Assembly (NCBI GenBank): GCA_002698995.1
Contig: PAAX01000026.1
Coordinates: forward strand, 62,001-126,000
Direction of reading: 5' to 3'
Source of the DNA: Ignavibacteriota bacterium
GTDB taxonomy: Bacteria; Bacteroidota; Ignavibacteria; Ignavibacteriales; Melioribacteraceae
Length of the DNA stretch: 64,000 bases
Translations under genes and position numbers: made by a program
Part shown: positions 2,432-49,325 of the stretch, in pieces
How the letters are laid out: the number at the start of each line of letters is the position of its first letter
Position numbering within the stretch: position 1 is the first letter of the stretch
Notes under the pieces: generated by a model
Told to the model about the DNA's origin: nothing
The model's database searches: none
What the model saw: only the letters and a program-made list of their open reading frames with translations

Positions 2432-5400
2432 TTACTTCAGTAATACCATCTTTTTAGTTGAGACAAAATCACCTGCACTAATTCTATAAATATATGTACC
2501 GCTGGCTACTTGATTTCCATAATTGTCTTTACCATTCCAAACAACATTGTAAGTACCTTGATTTCTTTGATCGTTAACCAAAGTTCTTACTTCCTGTCCT
2601 AGCATATTATAAATCTTTATGTTTACAAAATGACTTTCAGGTAATGAGAATTTAATTGTAGTAGTCGGGTTAAACGGATTTGGATAATTTTGTTCTAATC
2701 CGAAAACTGTTGGTAAAACTTCCTCTTCCTCTACACTTGTAATTCCGTCTTTCACTTTGAAATTACCGGTAGCTGAGTAACCTGAAATCTCACTATTTGT
2801 TTTTGATCTAACTCTCCAGAAATATTGACCACTTTCCAAGTTAGAAGCTTCAGCTTTTAATTGAGCTAAGTCAGAATAAACTGCTGCATCTGCAAAGTTT
2901 TCATTATCAGCTAATTCAACATCATAAGTTAATTCAGATGAAGAAGCAACTGGGTTAAACCAGGATAATATTGGTGATCCAGTATCAATTGTTACACCAT
3001 TAGCTGGAGAACCTATTCTAGGAACAACCGGAGCTGAACCAGCAACAATTGCAAAACTGTATGTTGTTGACCAAGCAGTTTGTGTAGCTCCATAATTACC
3101 TTGTACCTGCCAGTAATATGTTGCACCTGGAGTTAAACCGGTAACTTCATGGAAATTATTTGTAATTCCATTAATAGTTATTGGATTTCCCATATTTGCT
3201 TGCTGAGAATATCTTAAAGAATAATCAACTAATCCTAAATAAGATCCGCTTAAATACCAATAGAATGTTACATCATTAGAGTAAACCGTAGTATTGTTAG
3301 CTGGAGTTGTTGGAATAACTGTAGAAGTTGAACCACCAACTACAGTAAATGAACCTACTGCAAAATCACCATGAACTGGAGCACCACCGTCAGTTAATGC
3401 TACTGCCCAATAATATGTTGAACCATAATTTAATGCTGAACCAAAAGTATAAATAGTTTGATTGATATCATTTATTGTTGTAGTACCATCATACTGACCT
3501 GGATCTGCCCAATTAGCTGGAGCAGTGTTTGCTTCTACCCATCTAACAACATAACCGGTCCATCCTAAAGTCGATCCCTCTACATACCAGCTTAAAGTTG
3601 GAGTAGCAGAATAAACAGTAGGATTACTTACAGGATAACTTGCGACAGTATGACTTGAACCACCGCCAGCTACTGTAAACTCACCAGTTGCCGACCAGGT
3701 TGATATATTGCCTGGATTTCCATTTTCATATGATCTAACTCTCCAAAAATAAGAAACTCCAGCAGTTAAACCGCTACCTTGATAGAAAAGTCCTGAGATT
3801 CCATTTTGATCTATTACTATATTATTAAAATTAAAATCGGTACTTACTTCTACTTCAAATAATAGATCTGTTGAAACACCACCTACATACCAATATAAGT
3901 ATGGTGAGGTAGTATAAACAGTTGCACCGTCAACAGGATAAGAAGGTGTAGGAACAAAAGCTACAACTCCGGCAATTGCATCTGTTTCAAAAGTTGCAAC
4001 AGCTGAGAAAGTTTCATCTGTGCCATATGTTGTCTTTACCTGCCAGTAATAAACTGTACCTGGATCTAAATCTACAGTAGCTTGAACAAATAAATTAGAA
4101 CCGGCTGAATAAGTTGAAATTGTACCGGCATTCAATTCTCCGGTAACCCCATCAACAGCATTTGACGTTGAAACGATCACTTCAAATGTTGCACTTGGTT
4201 CATATTCAAGTGTGTACCAATAGAAATATGGCTGTAAAGTATAAACTGTTGCACCGCCTGTAGGCCATGATGGAAAAGCTTCTACTGCTCCACCTTTAGT
4301 ATCGAAATAAAATGCATTAGAGAATTTGGCAACTCTGTCATCATAATCAAATGATCCTGCAGAGGATCCATCATCATAGTATGCAACTATTCTCCAAAAA
4401 TATCTGGTACCTCCGGATAATCCGTTTACTGTTCTTGTTAAATCAGTAATATTATCATAATGAGCAAAGTAAAAAGGATTAGGAGTAGCAGTCAAATAAT
4501 TATCAACAGCTTCCGCCCATTCTAATTCAGTTGGAGCTGATGTTTTTTCATAAATCTGTAAAGCAAATTTTAACGTCCCTTGTGCTTGATTAATATACCA
4601 TGAGAATAATAAAGGATCATACAAATAAACAAAAGCATTATCTAATGGATTGCCTGCACTTATAGTTAAATCATTAGTAGTTTTAAAGCTGAATTCTTCA
4701 GATACTTCAGTACCACCATCATAAGTAACTCTCCAAAAGTACCAAGTATTATTTGCTAAAGGAAAATCTGCATGATATTCATTTGCTTGGTATGTAATAG
4801 TTGCACCGGCATCAACGAAATCATTAAAATCATCTGCATCTAATCCATTATCAACAGTAATTGAAATTGGATAGACCCCAGATGTTGTACCTATTTCTAT
4901 GGTATAAGAAGTTTGTGCTTCATCAATCCATTCAAACTTTGGTAAAACAGAAACACCGGTTAATGTATTTAACGGATTAATTAATACAGGGTTTAATGTG
5001 AAGTCCCAAGTACTAGTTGATTGTCTGTTGCTATTTGAAGGAGTTGAACCTGATTGATCTTTAGCAACAACATACCATGAATGATTTCCCGAAGCTAATG
5101 ATGGATCGAAATTAGTTGCACCCAAATTAGTAGCAACTGTTGAACCATCAACATATACATCATAAACAATTCCTATTGCATTCCCAGTAACGGCACTCCA
5201 TGTCAGAGGTGGTTCTGGAATCCAATTATCGTGAGACGAACCATCAGCTGGAGTTGCTAAGTCAAAAGCTCCAATTTCTGTTTTGAACGGGTCTGAAGCT
5301 GTAACATTATTAATACTTGTTGAAGCATCATCAGTTACAGAAACTCTCCAATAATAAACTGTATTGTGAAATAACGCTACAGAATTATCAGTAGAAACAG

Positions 5401-5995
5401 TGACTGGTGCTGCTGGGCCAACTACAGAGCCAAATAAAGCATCGTCATCAATTTCCAAAGTATAACTGTAAGGTGGAAATCCACCAGTTGCATCCGGCCA
5501 ATCAAAAGTTGGAGTTGCGTCAACGTCACCAACATTTGATGGAGTTGCTCCTACCATTGTAAATGCTAAAGGATCTCCTGTAGAAAATCTGTAAGGACCA
5601 GAGATTGCATTAGAAGCATTTACATCTGTTGTTGGATCAGCAAAATCATTGTCCCAAATCGCCCAATAATAAACAGTATTATCCGACAAACTTGCAGGGA
5701 CTGTAGAAATATCAAATGATTCCGTTGTAGCACCACCAAAGACATTTGCTTGGGTTAGAGTTTGTGGAGCAAAAAGGGAAACAGCTGAACCGTTATTAGG
5801 ATCGGCATTTCCACTCCATACAAATATTTTGACTTGATCATCATTTGTAGTCGGTGTAGCGTCTGCAGTTGTCCATTCAAATGTTGTAAATGTAGTATGA
5901 TCTACACTTACAGCATCATCTGAAGGAGTTGGCTGGGCTAAAATTACACTAGTAAACAACATCAAACTAGCTATAAAGTAAAGATATTTTCTCAT
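2432..5995 (-). CDS. giant T9SS-exported fibronectin-like repeat protein (copy B)
   Basis: A 1187-residue surface or secreted protein. A signal peptide (about residues 1-20, ending VILAQ) is followed by many beta-sandwich repeats of roughly 95-100 residues. Typical repeats open with P..G.TVY...P.L.WY and close with G.TYYW.V, as in fibronectin/Ig-like modules. The last ~85 residues form a type A T9SS sorting domain: NYPNPFNP, IYNMLGQEVRTLV, GTYIYRISAG and a terminal STKKMVLLK. It should be secreted by the Por/Spr machinery and attached to the surface or released. The 934-residue protein at 6524-9328 is a tandem paralogue with the same leader. No catalytic domain is seen; adhesion, matrix or S-layer-like roles are possible. 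Confidence 0.93.
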   Translation of the reverse strand: MRKYLYFIASLMLFTSVILAQPTPSDDAVSVDHTTFTTFEWTTADATPTTNDDQVKIFVWSGNADPNNGSAVSLFAPQTLTQANVFGGATTESFDISTVPASLSDNTVYYWAIWDNDFADPTTDVNASNAISGPYRFSTGDPLAFTMVGATPSNVGDVDATPTFDWPDATGGFPPYSYTLEIDDDALFGSVVGPAAPVTVSTDNSVALFHNTVYYWRVSVTDDASTSINNVTASDPFKTEIGAFDLATPADGSSHDNWIPEPPLTWSAVTGNAIGIVYDVYVDGSTVATNLGATNFDPSLASGNHSWYVVAKDQSGSTPSNSNRQSTSTWDFTLNPVLINPLNTLTGVSVLPKFEWIDEAQTSYTIEIGTTSGVYPISITVDNGLDADDFNDFVDAGATITYQANEYHADFPLANNTWYFWRVTYDGGTEVSEEFSFKTTNDLTISAGNPLDNAFVYLYDPLLFSWYINQAQGTLKFALQIYEKTSAPTELEWAEAVDNYLTATPNPFYFAHYDNITDLTRTVNGLSGGTRYFWRIVAYYDDGSSAGSFDYDDRVAKFSNAFYFDTKGGAVEAFPSWPTGGATVYTLQPYFYWYTLEYEPSATFEVIVSTSNAVDGVTGELNAGTISTYSAGSNLFVQATVDLDPGTVYYWQVKTTYGTDETFSAVATFETDAIAGVVAFVPTPSYPVDGATVYTTSPYLYWYVGGVSTDLLFEVEVSTDFNFNNIVIDQNGISGLFYQGSGLTAGVSYFWRVRSYENGNPGNISTWSATGEFTVAGGGSSHTVASYPVSNPTVYSATPTLSWYVEGSTLGWTGYVVRWVEANTAPANWADPGQYDGTTTINDINQTIYTFGSALNYGSTYYWAVALTDGGAPVHGDFAVGSFTVVGGSTSTVIPTTPANNTTVYSNDVTFYWYLSGSYLGLVDYSLRYSQQANMGNPITINGITNNFHEVTGLTPGATYYWQVQGNYGATQTAWSTTYSFAIVAGSAPVVPRIGSPANGVTIDTGSPILSWFNPVASSSELTYDVELADNENFADAAVYSDLAQLKAEASNLESGQYFWRVRSKTNSEISGYSATGNFKVKDGITSVEEEEVLPTVFGLEQNYPNPFNPTTTIKFSLPESHFVNIKIYNMLGQEVRTLVNDQRNQGTYNVVWNGKDNYGNQVASGTYIYRISAGDFVSTKKMVLLK

Positions 5996-6523: not shown

Positions 6524-9328
6524 TTATTTGAGTAAAATCATTTTCTTTGTTGAGGTAAAGTCCCCTGCTTTTATTCTATATATGTAAGTTCCGCTTGCTA
6601 ATTGATTTCCGCTGTTATCCTTTCCGTTCCAAATAATAGAATGATTACCTTCATTTCTTTGTTCATTAACCAAAGTTCTTACTTCTTGACCAAGCATATT
6701 GTAAATCTTTATGCTTACAAAATGACTTTCAGGTAATGAGAATTTAATTGTAGTTGTCGGGTTAAATGGATTTGGATAATTTTGTTCTAAAGAATAAACA
6801 ATTGGTTGTATTTCATTATCGTCAACTTCAACAATTCCGTCAACATTAAATTTGGCGCTTGATGAATAAATTGATTCTTCAGTTCCATTAGAAGATTTCA
6901 CTCTCCAGTAATATTCACCGGGTGCTAGATTTGTAGTTTCAAATTGAAGTTCATTTAAGTTGTTAAATGATGATGGATTTGTAAAATCAGGATTATCTGA
7001 AACTTCTACGGTATAAGATAATTGCGACTCAGATTGAACCGGTATATACCATGATAATATTGTATTATTTTCATTAACTACTACTCCATCAACAGGTGAA
7101 CCAACTATAGGAACAACCGGACTTGTTCCTGCCGGAGTATGAAATACATACGTTGCGCTTTGGGTTTCATAGGTTGTACCGTCATAACTTACTTCTACTT
7201 TCCACCTGTAAGTTGAACCAGGAACTAAATCATTTGTAATTTCGAAATAAGAATCACTTGTAATCTCCACTTCTGTCACCAAAGGATCAAAGTTTTCAGC
7301 TCTACTGTAGGTTAATCTAAAATGGTTAACAGAAGATGCATTTCCGGTTAAATACCATCTGAAAGTTGGAGTATATCCTACAATAGTTGAATTATTAGCA
7401 GGAGATGATAAATGTAAAACAGCATTGCTGTTTCCAATAATGGTGAAAGATCCTTCATACCAAGATGAAACTATGGAACCACTATTATATGTTGCAACTG
7501 CCCATTTATATGATTTGCCATAATCTAATTCAGAAGTAAAAGTATATGAAGTTTGATAAATATCGTTAATTGTCTCTAATATTGGAACTGAACTCCATGC
7601 TGTATTGTCCGATGCCTCTTTTATTTTCAATACATAACTGTCAAATCCTTGATAAGCTCCATATACATACCAGCCTAATGAAGGAGTTGTTGTATAAAGT
7701 AATGGATTATTTTTTGGGAAAGTAATTACAATACTATTAGATGTTCCGCCCGCAGTTTTAAAAGTTCCTTCTTCTGAATACTTTTCTTCTGTAGTAATAG
7801 AATTATAAGCTTTTACTTTCCATTTATATGTTTTACCTGCTTCTAATGGAGTATTCCAATCATAGTATAAGTCGGTTGTAGTAGCATCTACAACATTATC
7901 AAAAGGTTCTTCATAAACATAAAGGTCATACTCAACAACACCATCCCATAGACCATTAATATACCAGCTGAACCTTGGAGTTAAAGTATAAAGTGTTACT
8001 CCTGAAGTTGGATATGATACTGTAGGTTTATAAACTGAACCTTCACCTTTAGTTTTAAATGAAGTTGTACCAGACCAAACAGATTCTGTCCCGTTATAAA
8101 CAGAACGAACATGCCAGTAATATGTTTGATCAGGAAGTAAGTCGGTTGTAATTTGATAGTAAAGATCAGTAATTCCCGAAGCAGTACCTTTATTTTGAGT
8201 AAAGGCAGCATCAGTTGCATATTCAATTTCAAATTCAACACCGGTTGTTGAAGTCATTGTGTACCAGTAAAGTGCAGGCTGTAAAGAATAGACAGTAGTT
8301 CCGCTTGTAGGAAAAGATGGAATCGGTTGAACTGCTCCACCTGATGTAGTAAAATTTTTAACTGCTGAGATTTTCACAACCTCATTATTATATTTTGCTA
8401 CAAGTCTCCAATAATACTTAGTTCCACCGGATAAGGTTACTGAATAAAATAAAGCATTTCCAGCATCAAAACTATAATCCGGGGATGACCAATCAGCTGG
8501 GATTGTTGTACTTTCTATAATTTCTAAATGGAAATTTAATTGACTATTAAATGATCCTGTTCCCCAAGTAAACATTATATTTTCATTTGAAAAAACAGTT
8601 GTTCCGTTTGCCGGATTATATAATGTTAAGTTTACATTTGAGAATGTCTTAAACTTCCAAACGGCAGATTCATCTGTAGTTGAATTATTACTTACAACTT
8701 TCCAGTAATATTCCTTATTATTGAGAAGCGGTAAATCGTCATTAACCTCTGACATTGTGTATGTCAACACATTACCAACAGATTTTGTAAATATGGTACT
8801 GCCTGTTGCACCAGAAGTAAATTGATTATCTGTAGCAATATAAAGAGTATAAGTTAAACCAGGATCCCCTTCCCACTCAAAAGTCGGAAGAATAGAAACA
8901 CCTGTAATTGTGTTAATTGGAGAAACAAGTTTGTGAGATACTGTTGTGAAAGAATATTTAACTAATTCTGCATCACCGTTATTAATGTTATCAACTTGTC
9001 TCCAAACTCCCCAATAATATTCTTTATTGAATTCCAGAGGCAAATTAGCATTTGAAATTGTGATTGAGTTGGAACCGTCAACTTCAGTTATATTAATTTG
9101 CTGTTCAATAGTTGTTGATGAACCTGAATTCGATGGATCTGAATCATCTGTCCAAAGTCTGACTTTTACATCTCCCAGACCTAGAATTTGATCTTCCCAT
9201 GTTAAAGTTAAAGGAGCATAAGGACTGACCCCAGTTTCTCCATCACTAGGTATGGGTAAGGGTTGAGCAAATATTAGATTAGTAAAAAATAGTAAGCTAA
9301 CCAGAATGGTTAAGATTTTTTGTTTCAT
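6524..9328 (-). CDS. giant T9SS-exported fibronectin-like repeat protein (copy A)
   Basis: A 934-residue paralogue of the protein at 2432-5995. It has a signal peptide (ending NLIFAQ) and a first module with YYWGVW, then repeats with openings such as TTVYSLQPALYWY, VTLYTLTPRFSWY and PLLYTTTPSLGWY, each closed by a TYYW/TYKW strand. The C-terminal ~85 residues are a T9SS type A domain nearly identical to that of copy B, with IYNMLGQEVRTLVN and GTYIYRIKAG. It has about two fewer repeats than copy B. Promoter, leader box and start-codon hairpin match those of copy B, so the two are probably co-regulated. The role is unknown; the architecture suits an extracellular adhesin or matrix protein. Confidence 0.93.
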   Translation of the reverse strand: MKQKILTILVSLLFFTNLIFAQPLPIPSDGETGVSPYAPLTLTWEDQILGLGDVKVRLWTDDSDPSNSGSSTTIEQQINITEVDGSNSITISNANLPLEFNKEYYWGVWRQVDNINNGDAELVKYSFTTVSHKLVSPINTITGVSILPTFEWEGDPGLTYTLYIATDNQFTSGATGSTIFTKSVGNVLTYTMSEVNDDLPLLNNKEYYWKVVSNNSTTDESAVWKFKTFSNVNLTLYNPANGTTVFSNENIMFTWGTGSFNSQLNFHLEIIESTTIPADWSSPDYSFDAGNALFYSVTLSGGTKYYWRLVAKYNNEVVKISAVKNFTTSGGAVQPIPSFPTSGTTVYSLQPALYWYTMTSTTGVEFEIEYATDAAFTQNKGTASGITDLYYQITTDLLPDQTYYWHVRSVYNGTESVWSGTTSFKTKGEGSVYKPTVSYPTSGVTLYTLTPRFSWYINGLWDGVVEYDLYVYEEPFDNVVDATTTDLYYDWNTPLEAGKTYKWKVKAYNSITTEEKYSEEGTFKTAGGTSNSIVITFPKNNPLLYTTTPSLGWYVYGAYQGFDSYVLKIKEASDNTAWSSVPILETINDIYQTSYTFTSELDYGKSYKWAVATYNSGSIVSSWYEGSFTIIGNSNAVLHLSSPANNSTIVGYTPTFRWYLTGNASSVNHFRLTYSRAENFDPLVTEVEITSDSYFEITNDLVPGSTYRWKVEVSYDGTTYETQSATYVFHTPAGTSPVVPIVGSPVDGVVVNENNTILSWYIPVQSESQLSYTVEVSDNPDFTNPSSFNNLNELQFETTNLAPGEYYWRVKSSNGTEESIYSSSAKFNVDGIVEVDDNEIQPIVYSLEQNYPNPFNPTTTIKFSLPESHFVSIKIYNMLGQEVRTLVNEQRNEGNHSIIWNGKDNSGNQLASGTYIYRIKAGDFTSTKKMILLK

Positions 9329-33755: not shown

Positions 33756-36700
33756 TTATTTGATTAATACCATTTTTTTGGTGCTTACAAATTTACCTGC
33801 TTCAATTCTATATAAATAAACACCGCTTGATAAATTATAATTATCGGTAGATAATTGATAACTATGGTTACCAGCTTCTTTTGTTTCGCTTACTAACAGT
33901 GCAATCTGATTACCAAGAATATCATACAGTTTTATTTTTACGAATTCAGCACTTGGCAGCGAATATTTAATAATTGTCGAAGGATTAAACGGATTCGGGT
34001 AATTCTGTTCAAGACCAAATTCAAGAGGAAGTTCAACTTTATTTTCAACAGAAGTAGTTCCGTCTCCCTTTTTAAATACTTGACCATTAGTTGTACCGGC
34101 AAATAAATCTGATGTAACATGATTTACAAGAAGTGTACTTACACCAAATCCATCCATACCAATAGATTCCCAAAGTAAGGATTGAATTTGATTACCTCCG
34201 TTTTTAACATTTGAATCAGTACCGGAACCAGCAAGTTTTTTAACTCCTCCATTCCAAGTTGTTAAATAAACATTATCACTTTGATCAATTGCAATAGAAT
34301 AAACATAAAGATTCGGGAGATCATTACTTATATTGAACCAAGTCTCACCTAAATCATAACTTAACCAAGCCCCTTCTCCATAAGAACCGGCAAATAAATC
34401 TCCTTCGGAAGTTACACCCAAAGCCCAAATATGTTTTGCCTGGATATTTGTTGAAGTCCATTCAGAAGTACCGTTTAATAACTTGAAAACTCCACCTCCA
34501 AAAGTGCCGGCAAAGAGATCACCATTTTGATTAATTGCCAATGAATGAACTGCGTTAAATGTCAGACCATCATTAACTTCAGTAAATTCTTCATTGCCAT
34601 TTAATTTTTGAAATACTCCGCCGCCCCAAACTCCGGCATAAATATGATCGTTACCAGCAACGGTTACTGCTCTTACATCTGAATCGGCAAGAGCTTCTAA
34701 AGTCCAACTATCGCCATTATTTTCAGAGGCAAAAAGACCTTTTTCAGTTGCTGCCCAAATTTTATTGTTAGAATTATCAATGGCAATTGACCAAATAAAT
34801 CCAACTCCCATTCCATCATTTATCTTATTCCACTCTTCACCATTATTAGTAGAACTATAAATATTTCCACCCCAAGTTCCGGCGTACATAGTTCCATTAT
34901 TAGCAGTTGCCATTGCCCAGATAATCTCATTTGAAGCAAAACTTCCTGATGCAATCCAGTCATCTTCTGTTGTTCCGGGATCACCGGCAGGATCATTGGT
35001 TACTTCTATTGTTAATTGTGCAAATGAATTGTTATTATCTGCATTGTTATCTAAAGAACTGCTTTCTAAAATTTCAGCAATATTATTGATTGTAGTTTTA
35101 GCTGGAATATTTCCGATAAATAAATTGTTGTTAATTTGTCCGGCTCCGGTCATACTTTTTGCAATTAATTGTCCACTGATTAAACCGGAAGGAAAATCAA
35201 CATCAGCTTTTGGAGCTAATATTGATCCTCTAACATCAATATCACTTATTTTTAATTTTGTTGATTGATAAAAATTGTACAGAATATTGGTTTTATCGGT
35301 ACCAATTATTTCTAATCCGCCGCTCCAATGAATATTATTTCCGTCAATATTTATTAAAGCAACCGAACCGTTTGGCACGTTGACAATAACTTCAACTGCT
35401 TCATCTAATTTAAGTCCATCAATCTTAAATACATTTAAGTATGGACCGGTTCCGTTTAAGAAAATTCTTAATCCATCATAAGTTACATCTGAAGTCTCAT
35501 TTACCTCATATTCAGAAAGAGTAACAGACAGTGCATTTAAGTATGTAGCAGCATTTTCAAAATTAATTGGATAATCTTTTCTCAATTCCCCATCAATCGA
35601 TGCTTGAGAAACTGGTAAATTGGTAGATCCGCCATAAGCAACATTACCATAATAAATTCTGCCGCTGGTAAAATAGAGGTCTCTTCCAACTACAAGAACA
35701 TCTTGATTTGAGAAACTTTCATTAAGTACAAATCCAACTGAGTAATTGCTAATCGACATATCTCTGCCGACTGCAGCTTTCCCTTCAACATCTGAGGAAG
35801 GAGCTGTAAAATCTTTTAGGACAAACAGATTAAATTCTTTTGCAATTCCCAAATCAAATGTACTTACTTCACTTTTTGATGAGTTTACTTTTACATCAAT
35901 TGTTAGTTGTTTGGATTGACCATTTGATAAATCACCTACATTCCATATTCCGGTTTCTGCATTATAAGCATTACTTGGATTTGAAGATACGTAATCTAAA
36001 CCATCAACCAAAACATCAATAACTTTTACGTTGGAGGCTGCATCCGGTCCATCGTTGGTAATAGTAATAGAATAGGTTACAACATCTCCGTCATTTGGAT
36101 TTTGATTGTTCACTGTTTTGGATATTCTTAAATCGCTGTTTCTTATAATTTCGATAATTCCGGCATCCCAAGTCAAATCAGTTTCTCCGGCCGATAATGT
36201 AGTACAGATAGTTCTTCCGGTTTCAGGATCAACATCAGAATCATTTTCCGAATTACCGGCATTTTTAATCGTAAATTCAAATCCTTCGGGGACTACAAAC
36301 TCAAGTTTATAATCACCCGGAATTAATTCTGTAAATAAATAATTACCATTTTCATCTGTTGTTTGTACTGCAACGTAATTATTATCACAGTCAAACAATT
36401 TTATATTAACTCCCGCAACACCAGCTTCACCATCATCTTGAATACCATTTTTATTTTCATCAAGCCATACTTTATTACCAATCTCTGCAGGATCTTCACA
36501 AATAATTGTAGTGGACCAAGATGAAGTTTCAACGATCTCATCAAGTTCTTCACCATTTGCTAATTTTGGATATGCTGAGACAGAAGCTGTATTATTTATA
36601 ACTTGATCACAAATCGGTTCATCTGGCTGAAAAGCAAATTCAAATGTCCATTCTTCTCCGGGCAGCAAGTTATCTTTGCTTCTAATTATATTATCACCTT

Positions 36701-38558
36701 GATTATTAATCAATGGATCAGACACAGAAACGCCATTTTCAAAAGGAACATCCCCTTCGTTTTTAACAACAAAACTATAAACTATATCTTCACCTTGTAC
36801 TACAGATTCTGGACCCGATTTTTCAAATGAAACTCCAGTTTTATAAAATCCGAAATCAATTGATAAATCATCACCGCAATCAACAACAACTGCAGACGAA
36901 TAATTTTCATCACCGTTGCTGTCAATATTTTCATCTGTACCGGAACTCTTTGTTGTTAAATTCCATCTAGTCTTGGTTGGATTTGCTGAATAAAATACTC
37001 CATTTTCGGCAAAGTTTTCATCCGAAATTTTTACTGTATAAGTTCCATTTGGAACTGCACTAAATTGATATAATCCGTTTTCATCAGTCACATCCGAAGC
37101 AATAATAGTACTGTTTTGATCTATCAATTCTACAATTACACCTTCAATTCCGGATTCACCATTATTTTGAATTCCATCTGCAGAGTTGTTATCATGCCAT
37201 ATAAAATTGCCAATTTTATTTTCACAATCTTGTCCGCCAAATTCACAGCTAGGACCATTGATTGTACAGTAAAAATTATTTGTACTTGCTTTAAATACAA
37301 GCTCAACCGGAACGGTATCGTAATGTCCATTAAGAGTGAAAATAAAAGTTTTACTGTCACCGTTTTTACCAACACCTACGTCAAACTTTAATCCATATAC
37401 TCCTGTTCTCGGATCGGTATTAACTTCCCATTTATTATTCGGATAATTTGTACTTAAAACTTCATGCTCTTCACAAAGCGCAATTACCCAATGTGATAAA
37501 TCTCTTGGAGCACCTTTTCCGGTTACTTTGTATTCCCAAGTTGATGTATTGTTACTATTAAGCGAAACACTTACTAATTCAAATTCGTATCCATCAAATA
37601 AAGAAATATTATTGTTCCCGTCTCCGTCACAATCTTCAGTATCCGAACCCCAATTTACATTTGCTTCTGCAAAAGCTTCTGCATTTGCCGGTGTTGCTAA
37701 AACTAACTGCTGACTGCCGGTCGGATCGTTATTTTTTACAAATCTGGTTCCTTGGGGAATTGCAATATCTGAATAAGCAGTTACAGTTGAAACACCGCCG
37801 CTGCTGCTGGTTAAACTAAACTGTGCAATCCCGTTTGAGTTTGTTGTTACAATATTACTGCTTAAATTTCCATTTGTTGTAGATAATCTAACTGCAGTAT
37901 TTGGAACCGGATCACCATTTAAATCAAGAATTTCAACTTGGAATTGTGCAGTTTGATTTGTTTCTAAATTTTGAAAAGCCGGAGTAATTGTTATAGTTGA
38001 TGGAGCTTGAAATCCACCGGCATTTTCTTCAGCATCAAGAATAATTTCTTCCGCTCTCTCTCTTATTTTTTTGTATTTGTTTGGAAGCGTATTGAAATCA
38101 ACACCATCTGAAAAGTACCAAATTGCCATTTGTACTGCAGCCGGTTCTTCTTTCTCTTTTAATGAACCTTCATAAGGTAATTCATTGTAAGGATAGTAAT
38201 TATTTAGAATATAAGTTATTTCCTCTGAGGTTGGTCCATAACTGGTATATGTAACATTCCAATCTAAATTTGTATAAACATCAATGCAGTAAAAATCAGC
38301 ATCATCATCATCAAATTCACCATTTAAAGTTCCGGCAAAACCGCTGATTGATTCTCCGTTTGGGAGATAAAAACTTAAACTTGTTCCTTTACCGGTTCCG
38401 GAAATTTCAACGAAACTTCCGCCGTCTCTATTAACGGAATTTTCAATAACATATCTACCGATATTTTTCCCGTTTTGGGTTTGTGCATTGTAATTTCGAT
38501 TTGCTAATGAAAGGACTAGAAGTAACAAGGTTAAAAAAGGTATAAGTTTTTTTTCCAT
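33756..38558 (-). CDS. 1600-residue T9SS surface protein with Cys-Gln thioester domain
   Basis: Exported multidomain protein with a signal peptide (about 1-25). Residues ~30-180 match a thioester (TED/TQXA) domain: Cys91 in DFYCIDVY, ITYILNNYYP, and Gln143 in VQMAIWYFSDG, the pair that forms an internal thioester in Gram-positive adhesins. Next come a Big-1-like domain (~187-265), an undefined module (~310-430), an SdrD-B-like domain (~447-570), a DUF11/CARDB-like stalk (~575-685), a second SdrD-B-like domain (~690-800), another DUF11 (~805-895), a choice-of-anchor-A-like domain (~897-1150), BNR-like repeats (~1200-1500) and a T9SS type A sorting domain (NYPNPFNPSTIIKYSLP...STKKMVLIK). If the thioester forms, the protein could attach covalently to amines on a host, a partner cell or a surface. 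No sortase signal is present. Confidence 0.9.
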   Translation of the reverse strand: MEKKLIPFLTLLLLVLSLANRNYNAQTQNGKNIGRYVIENSVNRDGGSFVEISGTGKGTSLSFYLPNGESISGFAGTLNGEFDDDDADFYCIDVYTNLDWNVTYTSYGPTSEEITYILNNYYPYNELPYEGSLKEKEEPAAVQMAIWYFSDGVDFNTLPNKYKKIRERAEEIILDAEENAGGFQAPSTITITPAFQNLETNQTAQFQVEILDLNGDPVPNTAVRLSTTNGNLSSNIVTTNSNGIAQFSLTSSSGGVSTVTAYSDIAIPQGTRFVKNNDPTGSQQLVLATPANAEAFAEANVNWGSDTEDCDGDGNNNISLFDGYEFELVSVSLNSNNTSTWEYKVTGKGAPRDLSHWVIALCEEHEVLSTNYPNNKWEVNTDPRTGVYGLKFDVGVGKNGDSKTFIFTLNGHYDTVPVELVFKASTNNFYCTINGPSCEFGGQDCENKIGNFIWHDNNSADGIQNNGESGIEGVIVELIDQNSTIIASDVTDENGLYQFSAVPNGTYTVKISDENFAENGVFYSANPTKTRWNLTTKSSGTDENIDSNGDENYSSAVVVDCGDDLSIDFGFYKTGVSFEKSGPESVVQGEDIVYSFVVKNEGDVPFENGVSVSDPLINNQGDNIIRSKDNLLPGEEWTFEFAFQPDEPICDQVINNTASVSAYPKLANGEELDEIVETSSWSTTIICEDPAEIGNKVWLDENKNGIQDDGEAGVAGVNIKLFDCDNNYVAVQTTDENGNYLFTELIPGDYKLEFVVPEGFEFTIKNAGNSENDSDVDPETGRTICTTLSAGETDLTWDAGIIEIIRNSDLRISKTVNNQNPNDGDVVTYSITITNDGPDAASNVKVIDVLVDGLDYVSSNPSNAYNAETGIWNVGDLSNGQSKQLTIDVKVNSSKSEVSTFDLGIAKEFNLFVLKDFTAPSSDVEGKAAVGRDMSISNYSVGFVLNESFSNQDVLVVGRDLYFTSGRIYYGNVAYGGSTNLPVSQASIDGELRKDYPINFENAATYLNALSVTLSEYEVNETSDVTYDGLRIFLNGTGPYLNVFKIDGLKLDEAVEVIVNVPNGSVALINIDGNNIHWSGGLEIIGTDKTNILYNFYQSTKLKISDIDVRGSILAPKADVDFPSGLISGQLIAKSMTGAGQINNNLFIGNIPAKTTINNIAEILESSSLDNNADNNNSFAQLTIEVTNDPAGDPGTTEDDWIASGSFASNEIIWAMATANNGTMYAGTWGGNIYSSTNNGEEWNKINDGMGVGFIWSIAIDNSNNKIWAATEKGLFASENNGDSWTLEALADSDVRAVTVAGNDHIYAGVWGGGVFQKLNGNEEFTEVNDGLTFNAVHSLAINQNGDLFAGTFGGGVFKLLNGTSEWTSTNIQAKHIWALGVTSEGDLFAGSYGEGAWLSYDLGETWFNISNDLPNLYVYSIAIDQSDNVYLTTWNGGVKKLAGSGTDSNVKNGGNQIQSLLWESIGMDGFGVSTLLVNHVTSDLFAGTTNGQVFKKGDGTTSVENKVELPLEFGLEQNYPNPFNPSTIIKYSLPSAEFVKIKLYDILGNQIALLVSETKEAGNHSYQLSTDNYNLSSGVYLYRIEAGKFVSTKKMVLIK

Positions 38559-46451: not shown

Positions 46452-49325
46452 ATGAAGTACTTTTTAATACTTTTCTCTCTATTGGTTATAAGTGTCAATT
46501 CACAGGTAAAAAGTAACAAGACAAATTTAATAAACCTTTCTAAAGAAAAATCACATGAATTTAAGCTGAATAAGATGAAAGCTGATTCAATTGCAAATGC
46601 GCAGGGATTCTTCACAAAAAAAACTCTTTCTGATGGAACAGAATTAGAGTTGATGAGATTTGAAAATGGACTTCCAATTTTTTATTCTACTGATAACATA
46701 ACTGCTGCCGCAACTTCTTCAACTGATAAAGTATGGGAAAATGGAGCAGGCGGTTACAATTTAAGCGGAGAAGGTATTAAACTAGCAGTATGGGACGGTG
46801 GAAATGTGAGAACTACTCATCAAGAATTTCAAGGACGTGCAGTTCAAAGAGACGGAAATAATGCATTAAGCGGTCATGCTACTCACGTTGCCGGAACAGT
46901 TGCTGCCGGCGGTATAAATCCTAGCGCTAAGGGTATGTCTTATAAAGCCGACTTAGATACTTACACTTGGAGCAATGATGAATCCGAAATGGCAAATGCC
47001 GCTGTTGCCGGATTACAGATTTCTAATCATTCATACGGAATTCCTTTGGGATGGGAATATAATTATTTTGATGATAATAGATGGGCATGGTTAGGCGATA
47101 CTACTGTTAGTCAGACTGAAGATTATAGATTCGGATTATATTCTAACCAAACAAAAACTTGGGATCAAATTGCATACAATGCTCCATATTATTTAATAAA
47201 CAGAAGTGCTGGAAATGAAAGAACTGAAACAGGTCCAGCAAATCCTAATACCGAATCTTATTGGATTTATAGTGGAAGCAGTTGGGCATTAACAACCGGT
47301 TATAGAATTCCGGATGGTGGTCAACTTGGATTCGATTGTATTCAAGAAGATAAAGTCGGTAAAAATATTTTAACCGTTGGTGCTGTTAATGACGCTCCGA
47401 ATGGTTATTTAGATCCGAGCAGTGTAAGTATGACTACATTCAGCAGCTGGGGACCTACTGATGATGGAAGAATTAAACCTGATGTAGTTGCTAACGGTGC
47501 AGGATTAACTTCTACTTATTCAGGCTCAGATAATAATTACGAATCCTTGAGCGGAACTTCAATGTCAACTCCTGCTACAACAGGTTCATTAGGATTAGTT
47601 CTAGAACATTACAGAAATACTTATAGTCAAAATCCATTAGCCTCTACATTAAAAGGACTTGCAATTCATACTGCTGATGAAGCCGGAAATTCTGATGGTC
47701 CTGATTATATTTATGGCTGGGGATTGCTTAATACTTATAAGGCAGTTCAGCTTATCTCATATGATAATGCAATGGGACAAAATAATTTTATTAAGGAAGA
47801 TAAAATTGATAATGGACAAGAATTAGAGTATTCTTTTGAAAGTAATGGCAACGAACCAATAAAAGTTACAATAGTTTGGACAGATGTACCGGGTGAACCT
47901 ATTTCAAATCCGGGATTAAACAATAGAACTCCAATGCTGGTAAATGATCTTGATCTGAGAGTATTCTCTTCTACAAATGAAGAATTTATGCCATGGATTC
48001 TTGATCCGGATAATCCAACACAAGCTGCATCAAAAGGAGATAATATTAGAGATAATGTTGAACAAGTTTATATTTCTCAACCATCTGCCGGAACATATAC
48101 GATAAAAGTAAATCATAAAAATAGTATTACCAATGATGAACAATACTTTTCTCTATTAATTTCAGGTGCAGCACTAAACGAGCCATTAGCATCAAACTTA
48201 GTTTCTCCAACTAATAATGAAGTTGATGTTGAATATATCAACTCAGTTTTTGAATGGGAAAGATCAGAACTTGCTCAAAACTATGTAATTCAGATTGCAT
48301 CCGATGATCAATTCAATAATATAATTCTTGAAAATACTGTTGCATCAGTAAAAACAATAATAACAGAATTACCGGACTTCATAGAATTATTCTGGCGAGT
48401 GAAATCCAAGAATAACGGTGGAGAAAGTGGTTGGTCTGATGTTTATAAATTCAGAACTAAAATTGCTTTACCAAAAAATGTTGAATTAGTTAGTCCGGAA
48501 AGCAATGAAGAGAATATTCCATTAAATCAAGAATTCAAATGGAAAAAAGAATCAAGATCAGAAACATATACGATTGAAATAGCTAAAAATCTGTTATTTC
48601 TATCAACTTTAGAATCTGCTGATAATATTGTTGATACAACATTCAGTGCTAGTAACTTGCCGGATGGATCAAGATTATATTGGAGAGTAAGAGGAGTAAA
48701 CTCTACCGGTGAAGGAAATAATAGTGTTGGAATTTTCTTTACAATGCTTCCAGCTCCCGATAACATAAATGCAGTTGAACAAACCGGTGATGTTTTGTTA
48801 ACTTGGAAAGATAATAGTCAGAATGAAACTCAATTTGTAATTGAAAGAAAAGAAGGAAACGGAAGTTTTATTCCTATTGATACTGTTGCCAAGAATAGTG
48901 TTGAATATTTGGATACAAAAAGTTTTACGGATCCAAATTTAACATATAGAATATATGCTTCAAGTAATTATGCTCAGTCTGAATATAGTTCCGAAATCTC
49001 AATTGTTGTAACATCTGTTGAGAATGAAACCTCTTTACCAAAGCAGTATTCATTGATGCAGAACTATCCAAATCCGTTTAATCCATCAACAATAATAAAA
49101 TACAATTTACCTAAAGAAAGTAATGTTTCTATTAAGATATACAATATTCTTGGTGAAGTTACAGCTAGGCTTGTTAATAACGAAGTAAAATCTATGGGTA
49201 ATTATGAAGTCAATTTTAATGCAAAGAATTTGTCATCTGGAATTTATTTTTATGAGATAAATGCTTCTGCTGTTGATGGTTCAGAGAATTTTAATTCAAT
49301 AAAAAAGATGTTGTTGATTAAGTAA
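46452..49325 (+). CDS. T9SS-exported subtilisin-like serine protease (S8)
   Basis: 957 residues. A signal peptide (to ~17) and a short propeptide precede an S8 catalytic domain with Asp115 (LAVWDGG), His142 (GHATHVAGT), oxyanion Asn255 (RSAGNE) and Ser370 (LSGTSMSTP). A proprotein-type beta-sandwich (~440-575) follows, with VTIVWTDVPGEP. Two fibronectin-like modules (~580-760), one more (~765-860) and a T9SS type A sorting domain (NYPNPFNPSTIIKYNLP, terminal KKMLLIK) complete it. It should degrade proteins outside the cell or process surface proteins. The gene has its own terminator at 49356-49390. All catalytic residues are intact. Confidence 0.95.
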   Translation: MKYFLILFSLLVISVNSQVKSNKTNLINLSKEKSHEFKLNKMKADSIANAQGFFTKKTLSDGTELELMRFENGLPIFYSTDNITAAATSSTDKVWENGAGGYNLSGEGIKLAVWDGGNVRTTHQEFQGRAVQRDGNNALSGHATHVAGTVAAGGINPSAKGMSYKADLDTYTWSNDESEMANAAVAGLQISNHSYGIPLGWEYNYFDDNRWAWLGDTTVSQTEDYRFGLYSNQTKTWDQIAYNAPYYLINRSAGNERTETGPANPNTESYWIYSGSSWALTTGYRIPDGGQLGFDCIQEDKVGKNILTVGAVNDAPNGYLDPSSVSMTTFSSWGPTDDGRIKPDVVANGAGLTSTYSGSDNNYESLSGTSMSTPATTGSLGLVLEHYRNTYSQNPLASTLKGLAIHTADEAGNSDGPDYIYGWGLLNTYKAVQLISYDNAMGQNNFIKEDKIDNGQELEYSFESNGNEPIKVTIVWTDVPGEPISNPGLNNRTPMLVNDLDLRVFSSTNEEFMPWILDPDNPTQAASKGDNIRDNVEQVYISQPSAGTYTIKVNHKNSITNDEQYFSLLISGAALNEPLASNLVSPTNNEVDVEYINSVFEWERSELAQNYVIQIASDDQFNNIILENTVASVKTIITELPDFIELFWRVKSKNNGGESGWSDVYKFRTKIALPKNVELVSPESNEENIPLNQEFKWKKESRSETYTIEIAKNLLFLSTLESADNIVDTTFSASNLPDGSRLYWRVRGVNSTGEGNNSVGIFFTMLPAPDNINAVEQTGDVLLTWKDNSQNETQFVIERKEGNGSFIPIDTVAKNSVEYLDTKSFTDPNLTYRIYASSNYAQSEYSSEISIVVTSVENETSLPKQYSLMQNYPNPFNPSTIIKYNLPKESNVSIKIYNILGEVTARLVNNEVKSMGNYEVNFNAKNLSSGIYFYEINASAVDGSENFNSIKKMLLIK

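Follow-up and report, generated by a model that had tools for sequence, protein, structure and literature searches.

Thioester domains (TEDs) form an internal bond between a cysteine on strand C and a glutamine on strand Q, near the domain end (Walden 2015, PMC4450167; Miller 2018, PMC6194298). A glutamine and a tryptophan of the central helix adjoin this bond without being part of it; the helix glutamine hydrogen-bonds the cysteine backbone in known structures, and in Cpa neither residue was essential for the thioester, which still formed when this glutamine was mutated (PMC4450167; PMC6194298). TEDs have been described as found exclusively in Gram-positive bacteria and framed as host-holding tools (Walden 2015, PMC4450167). 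In Class I TEDs (SfbI, Cpa, PnTIE, CpTIE), the Cys-Gln spacing is 129-153 residues, and in Class II TEDs it is 171 in SaTIE, 204 in EfmTIE86, and 188 in the modelled TIEpLS20. The Class II domains contain a seven-stranded Ig-like insertion of ~75 residues at the boundary between helix 3 and strand P (PMC4450167; PMC6194298).

Regarding stalks, DUF11 and DUF7507 are presented in the available part of PMC12617251 as CLIPPER isopeptide domains of fibrillar adhesins, including Gram-negative ones with a Por_Secre_tail; that part mentions no thioester head for the diderm proteins. Our search of the open literature found no paper combining thioester domains with type IX secretion (T9SS), although automatic annotation in protein databases may already place a TED label on such proteins.

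Gene organization and domain architecture

The window, i.e., the whole stretch of 64,000 nucleotides analyzed here, contains an open reading frame (33756-38558) that the initial annotation had proposed to encode a 1600-residue, T9SS-exported thioester adhesin, and both its coordinates and its length were confirmed. The gene stands alone, its neighbors on either side lying on the opposite strand. The features of the protein are collected in Table 1.

Table 1. Features of the TED gene and its product in the window.
Feature	Position	Strand	Basis
CDS, 1600-aa protein	33756..38558	(-)	ATG start; ORF exact
Putative Sec signal peptide, ~residues 1-25	38484..38558	(-)	sequence reading; cleavage probably near NYNA/QTQ
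Class II thioester domain (predicted), residues 27-291	37686..38480	(-)	Pfam TED, AlphaFold, Foldseek
Cys91, predicted thioester cysteine, strand C	38286..38288	(-)	83/83 relatives; 141/149 aligned domains
Gln143, TQxA-type Gln of the helix, next to the predicted bond and outside it	38130..38132	(-)	solved TEDs, domain alignment
Ig-like insertion, Big_1-like, Class II-defining, ~residues 185-266	37761..38006	(-)	Pfam Big_1, AlphaFold strands
Gln283, predicted thioester partner, on or adjacent to strand Q	37710..37712	(-)	motif, conservation
First SdrD_B-like stalk domain, ~residues 446-574	36837..37223	(-)	profile match
DUF7507 (CLIPPER_2) stalk domain, residues 586-665	36564..36803	(-)	profile match
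Second SdrD_B domain, residues 691-801	36156..36488	(-)	Pfam
DUF11 (CLIPPER), first part, residues 809-896	35871..36134	(-)	profile match
Choice-of-anchor-A / pAdhesive_15, inside DUF11, residues 903-1149	35112..35852	(-)	profile match
DUF11, last strands after the insert, ~residues 1150-1186	35001..35111	(-)	profile match, relatives
Propeller-like repeats, ~residues 1215-1500	34059..34916	(-)	weak Reg_prop/Sortilin matches; NF045728
T9SS type A sorting domain, residues 1520-1597	33768..34001	(-)	Pfam; TIGR04183 50.1 bits

The stalk modules read earlier were recovered by profile matches to SdrD_B (198.6 bits, two stretches), DUF11 (90.1 bits), and choice-of-anchor-A (TIGR04215, 192.9 bits; pAdhesive_15, 183.9 bits), and the part taken for BNR repeats matched propeller families weakly (Reg_prop, Sortilin-Vps10). 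Neither the DUF7507 domain nor the Big_1-like module of the N-terminal domain had been listed. A candidate isopeptide triad, Lys580/Asp614/Asn656, can be read by motif in or near DUF7507, and all three residues were found by the same kind of reading in 27 of 42 relatives.

It should also be mentioned that the region 35001-36134 holds an adhesive domain of the choice-of-anchor-A type within an isopeptide-type (CLIPPER) DUF11. Nearly all of the 42 relatives in which both ends were found have the first part of DUF11 before the adhesive domain and its last strands (NxA..D..NN) after it, partly as read by eye. Splicing DUF11 across the insert added 15-19 bits in three relatives, but only 2 bits in the window protein. 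The window protein shares stalk modules and sorting tail with the CLIPPER adhesins of PMC12617251, and differs from them in this inserted domain.

A Class II thioester domain predicted at the N terminus

An N-terminal piece of the protein matched the Pfam TED model (PF08341) with 48.4 bits (cut-off 22) and TQXA with 32.3 bits (cut-off 30.4), the latter score being 29.5, slightly below the cut-off, in the full-length scan; the TED/TQXA membership anticipated by the initial annotation is therefore sustained. The thioester Gln lies beyond the reach of both models, which start at the Cys strand and stop at helix 3. The FYCID motif begins at residue 89, as described, so that its cysteine is Cys91; the YCID segment represents the [YFL]C-Phi-zeta motif of TEDs, present in 83/83 relatives, and Cys91 ends a beta-strand in the AlphaFold model. 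The helix motif was also correctly located, VQMAIW beginning at 142 and giving Gln143.

After helix 3 and the Big_1-like Ig domain, the protein continues as IPQGTRFVKNNDPTGSQQLVLATP, whose counterpart in the relatives is IPQGTRYVHK..P..xQKLVLATP; the glutamine of this motif is residue 283, i.e., 140 residues beyond Gln143 and past the inserted Ig domain (185-266). The SQQLV stretch at 282-286 is a weak PhiQzetaPhiPhi motif, Ser occupying the Phi position in the window protein. The relatives show YQKLV or KQKLV, with the Gln in 80 of 83. The Cys91-Gln283 spacing of 192 residues equals the median for 136 relatives. These data lead us to predict Gln283 as the thioester partner of Cys91. The adjacent Gln284 was also considered and rejected, its column being Lys in 72/83 relatives.

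A phmmer search of the PDB with the N-terminal piece returned only noise and one weak TED (5dcq). A profile built from 23 relatives matched TEDs weakly, its hits to intimin/invasin being due to the Ig insertion. A comparison of folds was therefore needed. AlphaFold modelled residues 27-300 with an 83-sequence alignment at pLDDT 88.8 and pTM 0.79, placing helices at 112-120, 137-151, and 160-179, followed by the Ig strands and then the last strands, in the right order for a Class II TED. A previous model of residues 26-197 without alignment was poor (pLDDT 53.4), excluded strand Q, and was discarded. The first four Foldseek matches in the PDB were the Class II domains 6fwy (EfmTIE86; E 5.5e-12 over 286 alignment columns) and 6fwv (BaTIE; E 3.0e-9). 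Below them came intimin pieces, through the Ig part, and the Class I TEDs 5a0l (E 2.2e-4) and 4c0z (E 6.4e-4). The superposition was loose (TM 0.51, rmsd 8.2 A), perhaps because the lobes hinge or are arranged differently. The Big_1 profile matched residues 200-263 with 52.7 bits, and the corresponding strands were modelled at 186-267. The domain is accordingly predicted to belong to Class II, the "slipknot" type, of the thioester domains.

The domain shares with the Class II TEDs (EfmTIE86, 6FWY; BaTIE, 6FWV; SaTIE; TIEpLS20) the Cys strand, the three helices, of which the second carries Q..W, the Ig insertion after helix 3 followed by strands P and Q bearing the Gln, the Cys-Gln spacing, and the N-terminal position on a stalked surface protein. 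In contrast, sequence identity to them is ~12-15%, the insertion is Big_1/intimin-like in sequence, the helix motif is AVQxAIW instead of TQxxPhiW, and a T9SS tail in a diderm takes the place of LPXTG. With Class I TEDs the protein has in common the TED core, the TQXA-type helix, and the expected chemistry, but those domains lack the Ig insertion, have shorter Cys-Gln spacing, and gave the weaker Foldseek matches.

Probable export by the type IX secretion system

The claim that a T9SS type A tail replaces a sortase signal holds well: the C terminus scored 50.1 bits with TIGR04183 (cut-off 23) and 40.2 bits with Por_Secre_tail (PF18962), and the protein ends in this domain and not in an LPXTG sortase anchor. 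The same genome encodes SprA (839.6 bits, or 1034.5 including a neighboring match), PorU (989.7 bits), and ~138 type A tails above the cut-off. Among 70 complete ORFs of the named relatives, 68 carry a T9SS tail, 59 recognized by a simple pattern and nine by eye, and the seven of these nine that were scanned all pass TIGR04183. The remaining two, from Anaerolineae and Caldilineae, finish with a GEVED part, then a hydrophobic stretch and residues that are mostly basic. Export of the window protein through T9SS is thus well supported. It shares with other type A cargo the putative signal peptide, the C-terminal domain, and the SprA and PorU of its genome, and differs from it in the predicted covalent thioester head, which was not found for such cargo in the literature searched.

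The window contains further type A tails in ORFs 2432-5995, 6524-9328, and 46452-49325. In another genome of the phylum, a TED-like protein of 228 aa (L036; G165:C1:18497-18778) consists of a single domain and ends in a PEP-CTERM-like tail. Four Chloroflexota proteins share the TED (L105, L133, L226, L227), and since L105 and L133 have a GEVED part and a hydrophobic tail, the TED head occurs with very different anchors.

Distribution of the family

Of 391 genomes of the class searched with a profile, 87 contain a match, in a few cases to the Ig part only; within the window's family, 39 out of 47 genomes have the protein. Named relatives belong to Melioribacteraceae, Ignavibacteriaceae, and other Ignavibacteria; no relatives were found in the viral contigs searched. 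The source genome encodes a second TED-T9SS protein of 1611 aa (L028:7267-12099; G000:C17), alike in its propeller-like part and tail and different in the module following the TED. This second protein, together with the relatives in the 87 genomes, allowed us to dismiss a chance origin. Contamination was also rejected, since the source genome is clean (99.99% completeness, 0.1% contamination), the family genomes widely share the protein, and two TED proteins occur in Stygiobacter electus 09-Me, a named strain with a record that bears no metagenome-assembly mark. Judged from these sequences, the T9SS-fitted TED family is real, widespread, and a new variant, its thioester being predicted.

Proposed function and alternatives

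The fold, the Class II anatomy, the conservation, and the T9SS tail with its machinery are computational observations, and the proposal that a diderm carries a thioester adhesin ending in a T9SS domain agrees with the TED/TQXA matches, the fold, and the type A domain. We consider with good confidence that the protein is an adhesin of the thioester-isopeptide-ester (TIE) kind, with a Class II head, rebuilt for a diderm envelope. The Sec pathway would deliver it to the periplasm, T9SS would export it through its type A domain, and PorU probably removes this domain and anchors the protein at the surface. The stalk, formed by SdrD_B, DUF7507, SdrD_B, and DUF11 interrupted by choice-of-anchor-A, would hold the N-terminal domain outward, where Cys91 and Gln283, having condensed with loss of ammonia, would present an internal thioester. 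A target amine would open it, leaving a covalent Gln283-target bond. The long surface protein of this free-living diderm is very probably tipped by a reactive thioester of its own making.

The target would more likely be another cell, biofilm matrix, or a particle than an animal host. The host amines suggested by the initial annotation find no support, since record titles place the relatives mostly in groundwater, springs, sediments, and (bio)reactors, which makes a host unlikely. A variant that differs in the target only, to which we give about an even chance, is that the thioester links cells of one kind with each other or with extracellular matrix, as in biofilm, aggregates, or mating pairs, instead of with a host or a food particle. 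These environmental origins are in line with it, and so is the Class II TED protein encoded by plasmid pLS20, which functions between bacteria during conjugation and requires its Cys (PMC8092201).

An alternative that we regard as unlikely is that the TED fold lacks a functional thioester, or uses it for stability only, binding being non-covalent through the TED surface or choice-of-anchor-A. The relatives bear on it in both directions. Genome contigs were scanned with two helix patterns, so the conservation of the helix Gln and Trp, which lie in these patterns, is partly selected; Cys91 and Gln283 lie outside them. Two of 149 unique domains are cut at the site, and 140 of the remaining 147 have the Cys. 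The strand-Q Gln accompanies it in 137 of these 140 (ten one-residue aligner slips corrected by eye, using the printed tails), many just 30-46% identical to the window protein, and three have the Cys without a Gln at that place. This joint conservation, and the fact that characterized TEDs make and use the bond, argue against a thioester-free role. Two distant Chloroflexota domains also retain both residues (read by eye).

The seven domains without the Cys (FYSYD, FYSID, LYSYD, FYSLD, FYSVS, FYFLD) all lack the strand-Q Gln too, having CPK, CRK, or NPR in place of xQK, and keep the helix Gln and Trp. In five of them a Cys pair was gained, three residues before the lost Cys (CFYS/CLYS) and one before the lost Gln (CPK), which probably forms a disulfide replacing the thioester; this replacement would demand that strands C and Q adjoin, as in a TED. 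A tree built without the Cys/Gln columns gave two changes for the Cys. The joint loss, which speaks for Cys91 and Gln283 as thioester partners, is therefore one or two evolutionary events, logically strong and statistically weak, a number with which a sign test cannot reach significance. Such pair-less relatives keep an open gene, indicating that the scaffold works without a thioester, and they are what speaks for the non-covalent alternative.

Other arrangements were also observed. Genomes of one family (f15; L130, L146-L155) have tandem arrays of up to six TED-T9SS genes of ~470 aa, in which copies without Cys and Gln, and with the new Cys pair, stand beside intact ones. In four loci (L127, L121, L126, L131) a choice-of-anchor-A domain precedes the TED, and L121 and L126 have Asp in place of the strand-Q Gln.

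Finally, a bond of Cys91 with Gln143, as the initial annotation had it, is most improbable, since, although Gln143 is kept in 149/149 aligned domains (part of its motif being in the search pattern), known TEDs bond through the strand-Q Gln with the helix Gln dispensable in Cpa, the 52-residue spacing falls outside every characterized TED cited, and the Cys-less domains retain precisely this Gln while losing that of strand Q. The Cys91-Gln143 distance proposed as a check might pass wrongly, due to the hydrogen bond of the helix Gln to the Cys backbone in known structures.

Implications for the family

Returning to the covalent adhesin with Gln283 as partner, we tentatively extend it, at rather less than even odds, to a clade-wide set of T9SS-exported covalent adhesins of diderms that act between cells or within biofilm, with some of the tandem paralogs having swapped the thioester for a disulfide located where it had been in the fold, so that their once reactive head would now be inert. 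The natural variants that lost Cys and Gln and gained a Cys pair offer a means to test the mechanism. Given the predicted chemistry, it also has to be asked how a reactive thioester would cross the periplasm and the T9SS channel. A TED head on T9SS in many environmental diderm genomes would separate thioester chemistry from sortases and pathogenesis, and the combination of such a head with a T9SS tag in a diderm suggests that the reported distribution of covalent attachment among bacteria is probably too narrow.
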